DNA of 64,000 nt, taken from NCBI GenBank assembly GCA_029212615.1, contig JARGPJ010000004.1, positions 248,001 to 312,000 of the forward strand, read 5' to 3'. This document shows positions 5,944 to 13,521 of the stretch, piece by piece; the stretch's first letter is position 1; each line of letters starts with the position of its first letter. Under the pieces are notes generated by a model. That model had not been told where the DNA came from. It was given only the letters and a program-made list of their open reading frames with translations, and searched no databases. The position numbers and the translations under genes are program-made. This DNA is from Verrucomicrobiales bacterium (GTDB lineage: Bacteria; Verrucomicrobiota; Verrucomicrobiia; Verrucomicrobiales; DEV007).

Positions 5944-6384
5944 ATGACTCTAATGAACAATAATTCATCGCAAAACTCCAGTCGCCGGAAATTTCTCAAC
6001 AAACTCGCGGTCGGCTCTCTTGCCGGTCTTGCCGCCGGATCAGTGGCTCATGCCGCCGACGACAAGAAGAAAGATCTTCCTGTCATTCTTCAGGACCCGA
6101 ACGTTTGTGCGGGACTCAATACCTGCAAAGGTAAAGGAAAGGGAGAGCACGACTGTGCCGGTCAATCGCAGTGTGCTACTGCGGAAGCTCACGGTTGCGG
6201 TGGCGCGAACGCCTGTAAAGGTCAGGGTGGTTGCGGATCCAGTGCCGGGCAGAATGAGTGTAAAGGTCAGGGGGATTGTGCGGTTCCTTTGAAAGAAAAA
6301 GCCTGGAAAAATGCCCGCGCCGCTTTTGAGAAAGCGGCGAAAGAGCACGGGATTAAAGTAGGTCCCGCCCCGATGAAAGGCTGA
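5944..6384 (+). CDS. Tat-exported cysteine-rich RiPP precursor (bufferin-like)
   Basis: About 146 residues from the ATG at 5944 (a second in-frame ATG is at 5953). A twin-arginine signal (SSRRKFLNKLAVGSLAG) ends near AHA-AD, around residue 38. The mature part is Gly/Lys-rich with nine cysteines at 55, 61, 71, 77, 85, 91, 97, 106 and 112. Every one belongs to a C-x5-C pair or triplet, with the recurring core N-x-CKGQG-x-C. A helical C-terminus of about 30 residues has no cysteine. The next genes encode an MNIO (DUF692) enzyme and a DUF2063 protein, the modifying pair of bufferin/methanobactin-type pathways, so this is most likely their substrate. In studied systems, cysteines become thiooxazole/oxazolone-type groups that bind copper. 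The exact chemistry here is inference. Confidence 0.82.
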   Translation: MTLMNNNSSQNSSRRKFLNKLAVGSLAGLAAGSVAHAADDKKKDLPVILQDPNVCAGLNTCKGKGKGEHDCAGQSQCATAEAHGCGGANACKGQGGCGSSAGQNECKGQGDCAVPLKEKAWKNARAAFEKAAKEHGIKVGPAPMKG

Positions 6385-6395
6385 TCTTTCCTTGT

Positions 6396-6444
6396 CCGTT
6401 CCGAATCGTGCCCATGCGAAGTGACATGGTTCGGGGCGGTTTTT
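6396..6444 (+). terminator. Intercistronic terminator/attenuator between precursor and MNIO genes
   Basis: A 15-bp RNA stem (6396-6410 with 6425-6439, including four G-U pairs) with a 14-nt loop is followed by five T at 6440-6444. It begins 11 bp after the precursor stop and ends 30 bp before the MNIO start. This is the arrangement expected if most transcripts stop after the precursor and a minority read through into the enzyme genes. Confidence 0.75.
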
Positions 6445-6474
6445 CTGATTTTCACGGCGATTGATTCTACCTCT

Positions 6475-7422
6475 ATGACGACTCCCCGACTCGGTCACCC
6501 TGATCTTGGTTTCGGGTTAGGGCTCCGCACCGTTCATTTTGACTATATTCTGGAGAATGAACCCGCCGTGGACTGGTTCGAGATCATCTCCGAAAATTTC
6601 ATGGACTCCCGGGGGCGTCCCCGGCACATCCTTGACGAGATTGCGGCGAGGTATCCCGTGGTTATGCATGGTGTTTCCCTTTCGATAGGAAGCACGGATC
6701 CGCTTGATCGGGATTATCTGAGAAAACTAAAGAAATTGTCGTCCGCGATCGGAGCGCAGTGGGTTTCGGATCATCTTTGCTGGACGGGGGTGGCGAGCCT
6801 TAATTCTCATGACCTTTTGCCGATGCTTCTGACGGAACAGACTCTCCAGCATGTCGCGGAGCGGGTCGACGAGGTGCAGGGCGTGATGGAGAGGCCCTTT
6901 GTTTTCGAGAACCCCAGCACCTATGCCGGATTCACCGGCTCGACGATGAGTGAATGGGAGTTCCTCAACCGACTCACGGAGAAGACAGGTTGCGGTCTCT
7001 TGCTCGATGTGAACAACGTCTACGTATCGAGCGTCAACCATGACTACGAGCCGGAAGATTACCTGGACGAGATTGCGGGGGATCGAGTGGTGCAGATTCA
7101 TCTGGCGGGTCACACTGATTGCGAAACACATATTGTCGACACGCACGACAGACCGGTGATTGATCGTGTCTGGGAGTTGTATCGCCGGACGATTGAGCGG
7201 ATTGGACCGGTCTCGACGCTTCTGGAGTGGGATGCGGCAATCCCGCCTTTTCCTGAATTACATGCCGAAGTCCTCAAGGCAAAATCGATCCTCGCGCAGG
7301 ATGACGAGGCGGATGAGGCCCGTCGACAGTTGGTGGAAACAGCGTCGCCGACAAGTGGTGGGACTGCAGGTGAACCAGTGAACCCGCATCCTCTTCATCA
7401 TTCCGCTGCTCTGGTGGACTAG
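6475..7422 (+). CDS. MNIO (DUF692) multinuclear non-heme iron oxidative enzyme
   Basis: 315 residues from ATG 6475 (an in-frame GTG at 6421 lies inside the terminator hairpin and is disfavoured). It is a TIM-barrel protein of the DUF692/BufB-MbnB family. Candidate iron ligands can be seen in order: [48 protein letters not shown] and [10 protein letters not shown], giving the His/Glu/Asp/Asn set typical of the family. These enzymes use an iron cluster and O2 to modify cysteine in a peptide precursor, usually together with a partner protein. Here the precursor is just upstream and the partner is 29 bp downstream, so the three form a biosynthetic unit. The family call is secure. The product structure is not known. 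Confidence 0.92.
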
Positions 7423-7451
7423 GTTGCCGGTAGACCATCGAAATTCTTATC

Positions 7452-8390
7452 ATGAATCCCCCTCCTTCCTCTGAACGCAAAGGAATATCCGACCTTGAGC
7501 GGGTTCAACGCTGGATGCTTTCGGTCATCAGCCACCCGGATGGAATTGACGAGGGAGTAGAGGCGGGCGAGGCGCGGCGCTGGCTCGACGCAGGAGCGGG
7601 CAAGCTGGAGAGCGTCGTGACTCGTTCCCGGCAGCTTTCCGCCAGTGAGCGGCTAGCGGTGTATGGCAATGCCTACTATGCCCGGCTCCTGGACTGCCTG
7701 GGCGAGGTGTTTCCTGTGCTGCTTCGGACTCTGGGGGAGGAGACCTTTCAAGGGTTCGCTTTCAGTTTTCTTCAGAGTTATCCTTCCAGGTCGTATACGC
7801 TCAATGAGCTGGGCCGGCACTTTCCCGCTTTTTTGCGCGAAACCCGCCCGGAAGCCGGTGACGAAGAGGCGGGTAAGTGGGCGGAGTTTCCGATCGATCT
7901 GGCGGAACTGGAATGGGCTATCTATGAAGTGTTCGACGGGCCCGGACTGGAAGGGGTGGGGGCGACGGAGATGCCGGACTTTTCAGCGATCCCTCAGGAC
8001 GAATGGTTGTCCCTGCGTTTTCGTGTCGCCCCCTCGTTGCGTCTACTGAAATTTTCATGGCCGGTGAATGCTCACTACACGGCTGTTCGTGCCAGCAGCG
8101 AAGGGATCGACTTACCGTTTCCCGTGCAAAGCAGCTCATGGCTCGCCTTGTCGCGCCGGGATTTCATTGTGCGCCGCTATCCGCTCGACGAGGCTCAATA
8201 TGAGCTTCTCCAGCAGTTTTCTCTTGGAAGCTCATTGGGTGATGCCCTCGAGTTTCTTCTCGAGGGTGAATTGATTTCGCCCGAAACGCTTGAGCGCGAG
8301 TTGCCGCGCTGGTTTCACGAATGGGCTTCGGAGCGCTGTCTTTTTGAATCAATCGGATGGCCGGAGGAGATGGCCGCGAAAATTAATTGA
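7452..8390 (+). CDS. DUF2063 partner protein (BufC/HvfC-like)
   Basis: 312 residues. The N-terminal half matches the putative DNA-binding DUF2063 domain: SASERLAVYGNAYYARLLDCLGEV and then LGRHFPAFLRE. The C-terminal half (about 160-312) is the less conserved domain found in MbnC/BufC proteins, which recognise the precursor and complex with the MNIO enzyme. Despite its family name, direct DNA binding is not expected in this setting. The gene follows the MNIO gene by 29 bp on the same strand, consistent with co-translation and complex formation. No membrane segment is visible. Confidence 0.9.
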   Translation: MNPPPSSERKGISDLERVQRWMLSVISHPDGIDEGVEAGEARRWLDAGAGKLESVVTRSRQLSASERLAVYGNAYYARLLDCLGEVFPVLLRTLGEETFQGFAFSFLQSYPSRSYTLNELGRHFPAFLRETRPEAGDEEAGKWAEFPIDLAELEWAIYEVFDGPGLEGVGATEMPDFSAIPQDEWLSLRFRVAPSLRLLKFSWPVNAHYTAVRASSEGIDLPFPVQSSSWLALSRRDFIVRRYPLDEAQYELLQQFSLGSSLGDALEFLLEGELISPETLERELPRWFHEWASERCLFESIGWPEEMAAKIN

Positions 8391-8455: not shown

Positions 8456-8920
8456 ATGAAAATTTCGAACCTGTTTCCGTTTCCTGAAGGCGCATGGCTC
8501 CTCGCTATCGCCTTGTTTCCTGCCTTCTCATCATTCGCGGCTGACTCCGGCCCTGAATTTCATCATGACTTTGCCGAGGCTGCTGAGGCCGCAAAAGTCG
8601 CGGGGAAACCACTCCTGGTGGTCTTTTCCGCCTCCTGGTGCCCGCCGTGTCAGCAGATGAAAAGCAAGGTCTATCCGAGTGGTCCGGTGCAGCCCTATCA
8701 CGATCAGTTTGTGTGGGCCTACCTCGATACAGATGAAGAGAAGAACCGGCCCCTTGCCTCTAAGTTCGGTGTGTCGGGGATTCCTCATATTGCCTTTCTC
8801 CGGCAGGACGCGACCATGATGGGTCATTTTACCGGTGCTATTTCCCCGGAGAAATTTACCGAAGTCCTCGATAAAGTCCTTGTCGACAGCCGGAAGCCGA
8901 AGAGTCCTGAGGGTGAGTAG
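8456..8920 (+). CDS. Secreted thioredoxin-fold protein
   Basis: 154 residues with a signal peptide (about 1-29, ending SFAAD) and one thioredoxin domain. The active site is SASWCPPC (Cys62 and Cys65), and the cis-proline loop is GVSGIPH. This is close to DsbD-gamma/thiol-disulfide interchange domains and should act in the periplasm. It is 65 bp downstream of the DUF2063 gene, and the preceding cluster exports a nine-cysteine peptide. A role in controlling that peptide's thiol state is therefore plausible, but this is inferred from context only. Confidence 0.85.
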   Translation: MKISNLFPFPEGAWLLAIALFPAFSSFAADSGPEFHHDFAEAAEAAKVAGKPLLVVFSASWCPPCQQMKSKVYPSGPVQPYHDQFVWAYLDTDEEKNRPLASKFGVSGIPHIAFLRQDATMMGHFTGAISPEKFTEVLDKVLVDSRKPKSPEGE

Positions 8921-8965: not shown

Positions 8966-9589
8966 ATGATTTCTTCCGCTGGATCGAGCCTCATGAAGCG
9001 CCTGAAACCGTCCCTTCTCCAGCATCTTGTCGATGAGCACTATGCGAACCTTTACCGGTTCGCACTCAGTCTCGCGAGGAATGAGGCCGAGGCCGCCGAT
9101 TTGACCCAGCAAACGTATTTTCAGTTAGCGACTCGTGGAGGGCAGATCCGCGATTTGCGTAAAGCGAAGTCATGGCTCTACACGACCCTGCGCCGGGAGT
9201 TTCTGCGGCAGAGGCAAGTTTCGGGCCGGTTCCTTTCGATCGACAGTGACGAGACACCGGAGTGGGAGACTCACGAAGTGGCTGCAGACGACGCTTTGCG
9301 ATCGGCGGACGCTTCGGCGGTGATGGAAGCGCTGACCGCGGTGAGTGACGTGTTTCGTGAAACTCTGGTCCTTTTCTATCTCGACGATCTCAGTTACCGG
9401 GAGATCGCCGAAATCCTCGAAGTGCCGATCGGCACGGTGATGTCGCGACTTTCCCGGGGGAAGGCCGAGCTGCGCCATTGTCTCTCTGATGCCCTGAATA
9501 ACTGTCACTCCCCCGATAATGTGGTCCCGATGCCGGGTTCCACGAAAGCGGGGCAGGTAAACCCGGACCCCTGTCCTGCCAGGAAATAA
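8966..9589 (+). CDS. ECF RNA polymerase sigma factor
   Basis: 207 residues. Region 2 (HYANLYRFALSLARNEAEAADLTQQTY) and region 4 (FRETLVLFYLDDLSYREIAEILEVPIGTVMSRLSRGK, read in parts) are both intact. The extra ~30-residue tail is polar and probably disordered. An alternative ATG lies at 8993. The downstream membrane protein has the shape of a cognate anti-sigma factor and starts 25 bp later. ECF sigma factors commonly drive bufferin clusters in other bacteria, so it may control the precursor operon. No promoter matching that idea could be assigned by eye. Confidence 0.92.
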   Translation: MISSAGSSLMKRLKPSLLQHLVDEHYANLYRFALSLARNEAEAADLTQQTYFQLATRGGQIRDLRKAKSWLYTTLRREFLRQRQVSGRFLSIDSDETPEWETHEVAADDALRSADASAVMEALTAVSDVFRETLVLFYLDDLSYREIAEILEVPIGTVMSRLSRGKAELRHCLSDALNNCHSPDNVVPMPGSTKAGQVNPDPCPARK

Positions 9590-9614: not shown

Positions 9615-10412
9615 ATGAACCGAGACAAAGCCCGATTCATTCTCTCCTCAGTCCGACAGGAACGGGTTGACCGGAATGATCCACAAGTTGAGGCGGCCAT
9701 GCAACTGCTGGCCGATGACCCGGAGTTGCAGGACTGGTTTGAGAAATCACAACAGTTTGACGAAGTCATTTCGGAACGGCTCGCAGAAGTGAGTCCTCCC
9801 CCCGGGTTGCGTGACTCCATTCTCACCGGGATGGAAGTGTCGCAATCCCCGCCCTGGGAACGTCGTGCTCTGGTCTCCCTGCTGCTCGCGGCCGTTCTGA
9901 CCCTTGGTGGTTTTGTGAGCTGGATGATTTCTTCAAAGAATCTCAATCCAACGGGAGAAAGGGTGGCTACTCTCGGGGAATTCGAACAGGCCATGGAGGA
10001 AACGATTTCGGAGTTGGAGGGGCTGGATGTCCTTTCCTCTGATCCTCTTGAATTACTGCAATGGCTGAGTGAGAAGTCCACCGGGACGGTGCCGCAATTA
10101 AGTGTCGCGGAAGAACTCTCAACGGATCGGTTTGTTGGATGCAAAGTGGTGAAGTGGCGGGGGCATGAGGTTTCTCTGATCTGCATGAGACAGGGAAAAG
10201 GGCGGGACGAAATGCCGGACCTGCATCTTTTTACGATTTCAGCCGATGCGATTGAGGGGCTCGTGAGCGATGAGCTCATTGCACGTTCGCCGGAGACCGA
10301 TGATTCGACGCGGAAATGGTCAACCGCCGCGTGGAGGTCGGGTGGGCGCGTTTATCTTATACTCGCTGCCGGAAAGCATGTTGAACCCCGGGAGTTGCTT
10401 CCCTTTGGATAG
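9615..10412 (+). CDS. Membrane protein, probable anti-sigma factor
   Basis: 265 residues. The N-terminal ~85 residues are soluble and helical (repeated acidic/Gln stretches around DDPELQDWFEKSQQFDEVI). A single membrane helix near 95-112 (VSLLLAAVLTLGGFVSWMI) is followed by a ~150-residue outer domain. The topology and the position 25 bp after an ECF sigma gene fit an anti-sigma factor. It lacks a visible zinc-type HxxxCxxC motif, so it would be a non-ZAS type. I do not recognise the outer domain. Confidence 0.65.
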   Translation: MNRDKARFILSSVRQERVDRNDPQVEAAMQLLADDPELQDWFEKSQQFDEVISERLAEVSPPPGLRDSILTGMEVSQSPPWERRALVSLLLAAVLTLGGFVSWMISSKNLNPTGERVATLGEFEQAMEETISELEGLDVLSSDPLELLQWLSEKSTGTVPQLSVAEELSTDRFVGCKVVKWRGHEVSLICMRQGKGRDEMPDLHLFTISADAIEGLVSDELIARSPETDDSTRKWSTAAWRSGGRVYLILAAGKHVEPRELLPFG

Positions 10413-12951: not shown

Positions 12952-13320
12952 TCAGTGACGATGTCCGCCGCCGTGCGAAGATCCGTGTCCGCCACCGTGT
13001 GAAGAACCGTGTCCGCCGCCGTGCGAAGAACCGTGTCCGCCACCGTGTGAAGAACCGTGTCCGCCACCGTGTGAGGAACCGTGTCCGCCGCCGTGTGAAG
13101 AACCGTGTCCGCCGCCGTGTGAAGAACCGTGTCCGCCGCCGTGCGAAGAACCGTGTCCGCCACCGTGTGAGGGGCCATGCTTGCCGGAGTGATGTGCTCC
13201 TGCGATGAGGTGGGCGATGGCACGGATGGTATTTCCTTTTTTGTTGCCGGCGATTGATGAAGTTGTGCTCATGCCTAACGCAATTGCCCCGATAACTGCT
13301 ACTTTGATTATTGTTTTCAT
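12952..13320 (-). CDS. Secreted His/Gly/Ser-rich repeat protein
   Basis: 122 residues from ATG 13320. A signal peptide (about 1-24, KVAVIGAIALGMSTTSSIAG) leads to a short linker (RAIAHLIAGAHHSGKHG) and then nine tandem octapeptides of consensus GSSHGGGH, ending HRH. The repeat is almost entirely Gly, His and Ser, so the mature protein should bind transition metals (Ni, Zn, Cu) strongly; this is inferred from composition. The copies are nearly identical at DNA level, which points to recent expansion or length variation between strains. I know no defined family for it. No clear ribosome site precedes the ATG; an in-frame TTG lies 21 bases upstream. Confidence 0.75.
   Translation of the reverse strand: MKTIIKVAVIGAIALGMSTTSSIAGNKKGNTIRAIAHLIAGAHHSGKHGPSHGGGHGSSHGGGHGSSHGGGHGSSHGGGHGSSHGGGHGSSHGGGHGSSHGGGHGSSHGGGHGSSHGGGHRH
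12960..13175. repeat. 24-bp coding minisatellite, about nine copies
   Basis: Consecutive 24-bp units differ only at a few silent positions (CCGCCG/CCACCG; GTGTGA/GTGCGA; GAA/GAG). The period is a multiple of three, so copy-number change keeps the frame of the His-rich protein. There are no spacers, so this is not a CRISPR array. Confidence 0.9.
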
Positions 13321-13521
13321 TTTTTTGGTTTTTAGGAGCAACTGGTTTAGTGGTGATTGTCTCCGGAAATGAGACGAGTGGTTTTCTTTATCTATTCATT
13401 TTTTTGCAATGCTCAGTCGAGAGGGCCCGGTAATTCCCGGGAAGTATTTTCGTGAATGGCCTGGTGAGTTTCCAACCGGGATTGCTTCCCCGGATGCAGG
13501 TGCGAATGACAGGACTAACGC

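Follow-up and report, generated by a model that had tools for sequence, protein, structure and literature searches.

The gene order, homology and cysteine pattern described here identify an operon that probably directs synthesis of a ribosomally synthesized and post-translationally modified peptide (RiPP) of the bufferin/captophorin kind, with export by the twin-arginine translocation (Tat) pathway, thiooxazoles as the modification and copper buffering as the role. The operon lies in a window of 64,000 nucleotides from a Verrucomicrobiales bacterium (assembly GCA_029212615.1, contig JARGPJ010000004.1, positions 248,001 to 312,000; C3 among the 21 contigs of a genome of 4.5 Mb). Three consecutive plus-strand genes encode a nine-cysteine precursor peptide, a multinuclear non-heme iron-dependent oxidative enzyme (MNIO, DUF692) and a DUF2063 partner protein, and a preliminary description of these genes had their reading frames, strand and coordinates right. 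They represent a coherent, real subclass of the known bufferin kind, undescribed in the literature searched. Because the cysteine number and the profile cut-off of the Buf2 bufferins are not matched and the signal peptide reads as Tat, we do not count the system among the Buf2 bufferins, yet very probably it works like one. The bufferin-type MNIO system and the separate subclass proposed in the preliminary description both stand; the spacing that it had singled out as distinctive does not.

The enzyme and its partner are readily classified. The MNIO scores 361 bits with Pfam PF05114 (cut-off 25) and 359.7 with the NCBIfam BufB model NF050167 (cut-off 310), placing it in the BufB class, and it falls far below the cut-offs of ChrH, ApyH and MbnB (47.2 bits for the last, where the cut-off of 325 excludes it from the MbnB class). 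The protein encoded after it scores 70.8 bits with DUF2063 (cut-off 27.2) and, having both this domain and a RiPP recognition element (RRE), is a type 1 partner (PME1). In sequence searches of the PDB, neither the partner nor the precursor profile gave a match at the limits used. The same genome encodes a second, more distant MNIO of 402 residues (L002, contig C18) that lies below the HvfB and BufB cut-offs, and it contains tatC.

The precursor cysteines are at residues 55, 61, 71, 77, 85, 91, 97, 106 and 112, numbered from the methionine at 5944, and every one has a partner at exactly six residues' distance, as the preliminary description had noted. When the 58-residue core was shuffled, all nine cysteines were so paired in 14 of 200,000 shuffles and at least five pairs formed in 166 of 200,000; with any spacing from 2 to 12 allowed, at least five pairs formed in 370 of 50,000. 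More telling than these statistics is conservation, since all nine cysteines are kept in five homologs from the same genus and family. As a new motif, C-x5-C is rejected: Buf2/BufA2 peptides are built on this repeat, with 6-, 12- and 18-cysteine forms among those examined here. What is unusual is the count of nine, the Tat-type signal, a C-terminal helix in a segment that we call the follower, and matching traits of the MNIO. The nine-cysteine peptides align with cysteines 1, 2, 5-9, 11 and 12 of the 12-cysteine form and lack 3, 4 and 10. Two 11-cysteine precursors with twin arginine and follower (L043 and L128) lack only cysteine 10, as does, it seems, an 11-cysteine precursor with twin arginine and no follower (L148), and the direction of change may have been from 12 through 11 to nine.

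How widely is this type distributed? Precursor matches occur in 13 of 141 related genomes; six of these, including that of the window, have nine-cysteine twin-arginine peptides, and the other seven (eight loci) have 6-cysteine peptides without the twin arginine. A scan of contigs with a six-row alignment (A1) gave 65 loci from 134 candidate stretches, among which 55 (L020-L074, five of them the homologs just mentioned) were assigned by eye to the type of the window. Exactly nine cysteines are present in 52 of the 55, eleven in L043, one of the nine is missing in L059, and L061 has one extra. By record title, 40 of these loci are from Planctomycetota, 11 from Verrucomicrobiota and one from Acidobacteriota, and three are labeled only 'bacterium'. 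The same profile matches 60 of 392 genomes from the phylum of the known carriers G503 and G504 (Planctomycetota, by the title of L071). From weaker matches in these 392 genomes, 20 stretches were fetched, sixteen of which encode 12-cysteine peptides, most with gaps of 5,5,6,5,5,7,5,5,6,5,5, which corresponds to two 6-cysteine Buf2 units in tandem; the remaining four have 18 (L164), 10 (L151 and L165) and 11 (L148) cysteines. L164, which has no twin arginine, consists of three tandem 6-cysteine units beside MNIO and DUF2063 genes. In class-mates of the window genome (loci L101, L103 and L112), precursors without the twin arginine are runs of a CKGKDG-like hexapeptide with a cysteine every six residues, each in a locus with MNIO and DUF2063 matches. 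The 14-cysteine precursor of L076 is a 12-cysteine array plus two cysteines, in a record whose title, a metagenome-assembled genome of Klebsiella pneumoniae, looks doubtful for this family.

The association of precursor and enzyme, on which the preliminary description had staked its proposal, is borne out: an MNIO gene is present in 47 of the 55 loci and a DUF2063 gene in 45. In 44 of the 47, the MNIO gene follows the precursor gene on that gene's strand at a distance of no more than 1 kb, and in one (L043) the gap is zero. In L032 (5705-7675) MNIO and partner are fused in one frame of 657 residues. Neighbor clustering beyond precursor, MNIO and DUF2063 gave only small or mixed families (F2 is mixed). 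The eight loci without an MNIO gene, two of which (L041 and L067) lack it because the contig ends, could suggest that the peptide is an unmodified, metallothionein-like or disulfide-bonded exported protein and that the neighboring MNIO acts on something else, and a thioredoxin-like gene that follows the window operon has close relatives near the L020 and L021 precursors. However, an MNIO is encoded elsewhere in the genome for all eight of these loci (nine of nine if the 12-cysteine-type locus L076 is included), and precursor and enzyme traits co-occur, so we regard an unmodified protein as highly improbable.

A Tat-type signal, which the preliminary description had also proposed, is supported by the sequence motif. 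All 56 precursors (the 55 loci and the window) have the twin arginine without exception. Two places on stands phenylalanine in 52 of the 55 loci and leucine in three; elsewhere the signal is variable. Judged by sequence, the motif comes together with a signal peptidase site or lipobox. The search patterns were two cysteine motifs that do not cover the signal and thus did not select for the arginines, although the seed alignment consisted entirely of twin-arginine sequences and the start-codon script looked for the pair. The same RRxF motif is found in follower-less 12-cysteine forms, namely L077 and five of the sixteen peptides above (L146, L149, L154, L159 and L161, by eye); the other eleven are without it. 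An automatic flag for L147 was false by eye, and L153 and L162, which have the arginines without the rest of the motif, were counted as not Tat. Could the arginine pair nevertheless be of no consequence, with an ordinary bufferin exported by the general secretory (Sec) pathway, or by both routes, and working as any Buf2? The window protein scores 15.9 with the Tat profile TIGR01409, just under the cut-off of 16.7, although its SRRKFL fits the motif; homologous 6-, 10-, 12- and 18-cysteine Buf2 peptides of the same phyla have signals without RRxF; and in Pseudomonadota SRRGF in L081 corresponds to SRTGF in its sisters L082 and L083. Set against the invariance of the pair in an otherwise variable signal and its recurrence in follower-less forms, these points leave a Sec bufferin rather unlikely.

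The MNIOs of the subclass share traits that go together with the precursor type: where the follower is present, the MNIO has a longer C-terminus and alanine or serine after the proposed catalytic aspartate. This aspartate was located by a match of ERDF/EWDA to 3BWW, and its equivalence to FonB Asp249 (PMC13097082) is by analogy. The following residue is alanine or serine in 69 of 70 rows of Tat nine-cysteine MNIOs (near-copies included; the last row is truncated), and aspartate in 20 of 21 Verrucomicrobia MNIOs with Sec 6-cysteine precursors and in 4 of 5 Pseudomonadota ones. Among 12-cysteine-like systems the position is mixed, with 5 Ala, 3 Asp, 3 Glu, 2 Gln and two without the motif in the 15 Sec rows, and 3 Ala, 2 Asp and 1 Glu in the six Tat rows. 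At least 45 residues follow the catalytic aspartate in 65 of 66 follower-type MNIOs (trivially so in the fusion L032; for L144, the one exception, the hit of the motif search lay at the extreme end of the protein), compared with 3 of 47 others, and a P[HQ]P or VxVE-like end is present in 56 of 66 and 0 of 47, respectively. In the follower, P112, W118 and R122 are invariant in 56 rows, and its helix, at 115-131, is the best part of a poor precursor structure model.

Do these replacements mean that the peptide is modified differently? According to an AlphaFold model described in PMC13097082, the aspartate beside the catalytic aspartate in BufB2 contacts the substrate lysine that follows cysteine in BufA2, and it is this aspartate that alanine or serine replaces. 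In the 52 exact nine-cysteine rows, only cysteines 2, 6 and 8 nearly always precede lysine (52, 46 and 50 rows), and cysteines 3, 4 and 7 precede alanine (51), alanine (48) and glycine (48). The fraction of cysteines followed by lysine averages 0.70 where the MNIO has an acidic residue at this position and 0.40 where it does not (108 pairs, with kinship ignored, so that the Mann-Whitney p is descriptive only). The MNIO could recognize cysteines in Cys-Ala, Cys-Gly and Cys-Arg contexts and form a different heterocycle there or modify only some cysteines, and the metal could be one other than copper. Yet the MNIO is a BufB by its profile scores, 12-cysteine systems have various residues at the position, and, according to PMC13097082, 5-thiooxazole was present in the three products examined there and was still made by FonB F250D; a different modification or specificity is therefore improbable.

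From sequence, synteny and structural models, the most likely course is as follows. In the cytoplasm, the RRE of the partner would bind the precursor, and the MNIO (BufB) together with the DUF2063-RRE partner (BufC) would oxidize a number of its nine cysteines, with 5-thiooxazoles as the likeliest product. Owing to its SRRxF signal, the modified peptide would leave by the Tat pathway, and it would then buffer excess copper, perhaps also other soft metals, in the periplasm. A lipobox-like site is found in 20 of the 55 loci by a loose pattern, and in some planctomycete relatives the peptide may remain anchored as a Tat lipoprotein. Antoine et al. state in their Discussion (PMC12452194) that something must keep bufferin precursors that carry Sec signals from being exported unmodified; the signal peptide, they add, seems to belong to the sequence that is recognized. 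A speculative extension, which we rate as unlikely, is a Tat-proofreading RiPP: the MNIO-partner complex would hold the Tat signal while cysteines are modified, reminiscent of Tat chaperones of cofactor enzymes, and would release only the modified, perhaps metal-loaded, peptide, with the follower helix and the MNIO tail as a docking pair. If Tat export is correct, the subclass bears on how export waits for completed modification, and a sister subclass with an apparent folded-protein exporter and a few matching differences in precursor and enzyme would make the question testable by swaps of Sec and Tat signals. The subclass also extends bufferin-like systems to Planctomycetes and Verrucomicrobia, and cultured strains of these groups would allow a check of the copper role.

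Several results weigh against a Tat-exported, copper-buffering bufferin subclass. The precursor matches the BufA2 model NF050166 in three stretches at 29.5-29.7 bits and does not reach the cut-off of 60, which no protein exceeded in 387 genomes of the phylum; one 6-cysteine, one 11-cysteine and two 12-cysteine forms scanned are likewise below it. All 56 members of the subclass match the model at E <= 0.05, the best of them at 7.5e-13. At the same E value TIGR01409 finds only 7 of the 56, and TIGR02811, another model of Tat targets, 16. The precursor model is of low confidence (mean pLDDT, the predicted local distance difference test, of 51), and its core is predicted to be disordered (block pLDDT 41-48), which is odd in a substrate of a pathway for folded proteins, unless the core acquires a fold through modification or metal. 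If the prediction is right, it argues against Tat export before modification, or else the core becomes fit for Tat by being modified, by taking up metal or by binding a partner. Among 14 neighboring proteins scanned, none exceeded the cut-off of a copper-specific family and no DoxX was found. As metal context, an upstream resistance-nodulation-division (RND) pump was rejected as multidrug-type. A two-component pair was rejected too: its scores stay under the cut-offs of the heavy-metal families (168.7 against 279.2; 161.7 against 292.6), and the locus of the nearest relative, L020, contains no match to it. In the MNIO trees, only the removal of two long-branched rows places the 35 follower-type enzymes of a chosen set together on one side of a branch, with a support of 89 (not starred); when these rows are retained, L147 (12-cysteine, Sec) lies among the follower-type enzymes, and the base has no resolution. 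In a tree of 98 rows, the long-branched Sec 6-cysteine Verrucomicrobia MNIOs and the 12-cysteine pair L077/L078 lie inside the Tat nine-cysteine set (supports 96, starred, and 91). A single clade for the subclass enzymes is thus possible and depends on the rows used. By the approximately unbiased (AU) test, one clade of all Tat rows is neither demonstrated nor rejected (p-AU 0.069), nor is one clade of all Verrucomicrobiota rows rejected (p-AU 0.47), so we make no claim about horizontal transfer or the number of Tat gains.

The closest known systems are the BufA2-BufB2-BufC2 bufferins (NF050166, NF050167; Antoine et al. 2025, PMC12452194), which share CKGxNxCKGxG-type C-x5-C repeats, a BufB-class MNIO, a DUF2063-RRE partner, the gene order ABC and an exported precursor. 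They differ in having 6 or 12 conserved cysteines instead of nine conserved ones, a Sec signal where that of the window reads as Tat, no C-terminal follower, a shorter MNIO C-terminus and aspartate beside the catalytic aspartate; in scoring below the BufA2 cut-off, the window precursor resembles the other scanned Buf2-like forms of these phyla. The captophorins (fontiphorin, oxazolin, gonophorin and bufferins; PMC13097082) share the combination of MNIO, PME1 and cysteine-rich precursor; unlike theirs, the window precursor has no EGKCG repeat and only three of its nine cysteines nearly always before lysine. Methanobactin (MbnABC) shares the MNIO superfamily and a likely metal-binding peptide, but has another partner protein and a precursor without signal peptide (PMC12452194). 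No paper on Tat bufferins was found in the open-access literature searched (for one broad search, among 15 of 286 matches); the main text of PMC12452194 contains neither 'Tat signal' nor 'Verrucomicrob', and that of PMC13097082 no word beginning with 'Tat'.

Table 1. The operon, its parts and the genes 3' of it (positions in the window)
Feature	Position	Strand	Basis or remark
Precursor peptide gene (bufA-like)	5953..6384	+	143 aa, nine Cys; start first placed at 5944, three residues longer
Tat-type signal peptide SRRKFLNKL...SVAHA	5953..6054	+	Cleavage after AHA, placed by eye
Nine-Cys core	6106..6279	+	Gaps 5,9,5,7,5,5,8,5; aligns to 12-Cys Buf2 without Cys 3, 4, 10
C-terminal follower with helix, VPLxxxxWxxARxxFE...GPAP	6283..6381	+	Invariant residues and structure model
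MNIO enzyme (bufB-like, PF05114)	6475..7422	+	Profile matches
Proposed catalytic Asp253, then Ala254	7231..7236	+	Role by analogy with FonB Asp249 (PMC13097082)
C-terminal MNIO extension	7324..7419	+	Comparison across MNIO rows
Partner (bufC-like, PME type 1)	7452..8390	+	DUF2063 and RRE-like domain at about residues 190-301
Exported thioredoxin-like protein	8456..8920	+	Close relatives in L020 and L021
ECF (extracytoplasmic function) sigma factor	8966..9589	+	Same order in L020
Putative anti-sigma protein	9615..10412	+	Same order in L020

The precursor probably starts at the methionine at 5953, the fourth residue of the frame first described, because the closest relative aligns from there and has ATG there; the MNIO start is best placed as in Table 1, rather than at GTG 6421 of the longest open reading frame. 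The thioredoxin-like protein, which could perhaps be an accessory, and the sigma and anti-sigma genes follow the operon in the same order in L020; near L021 the thioredoxin relative is on the other strand, and relatives of the sigma and anti-sigma genes lie near L060. Further downstream, on the minus strand at 12952-13341, the window encodes a possibly metal-binding protein that looks exported and contains a long repeat of His and Gly (HGSSHGGG).
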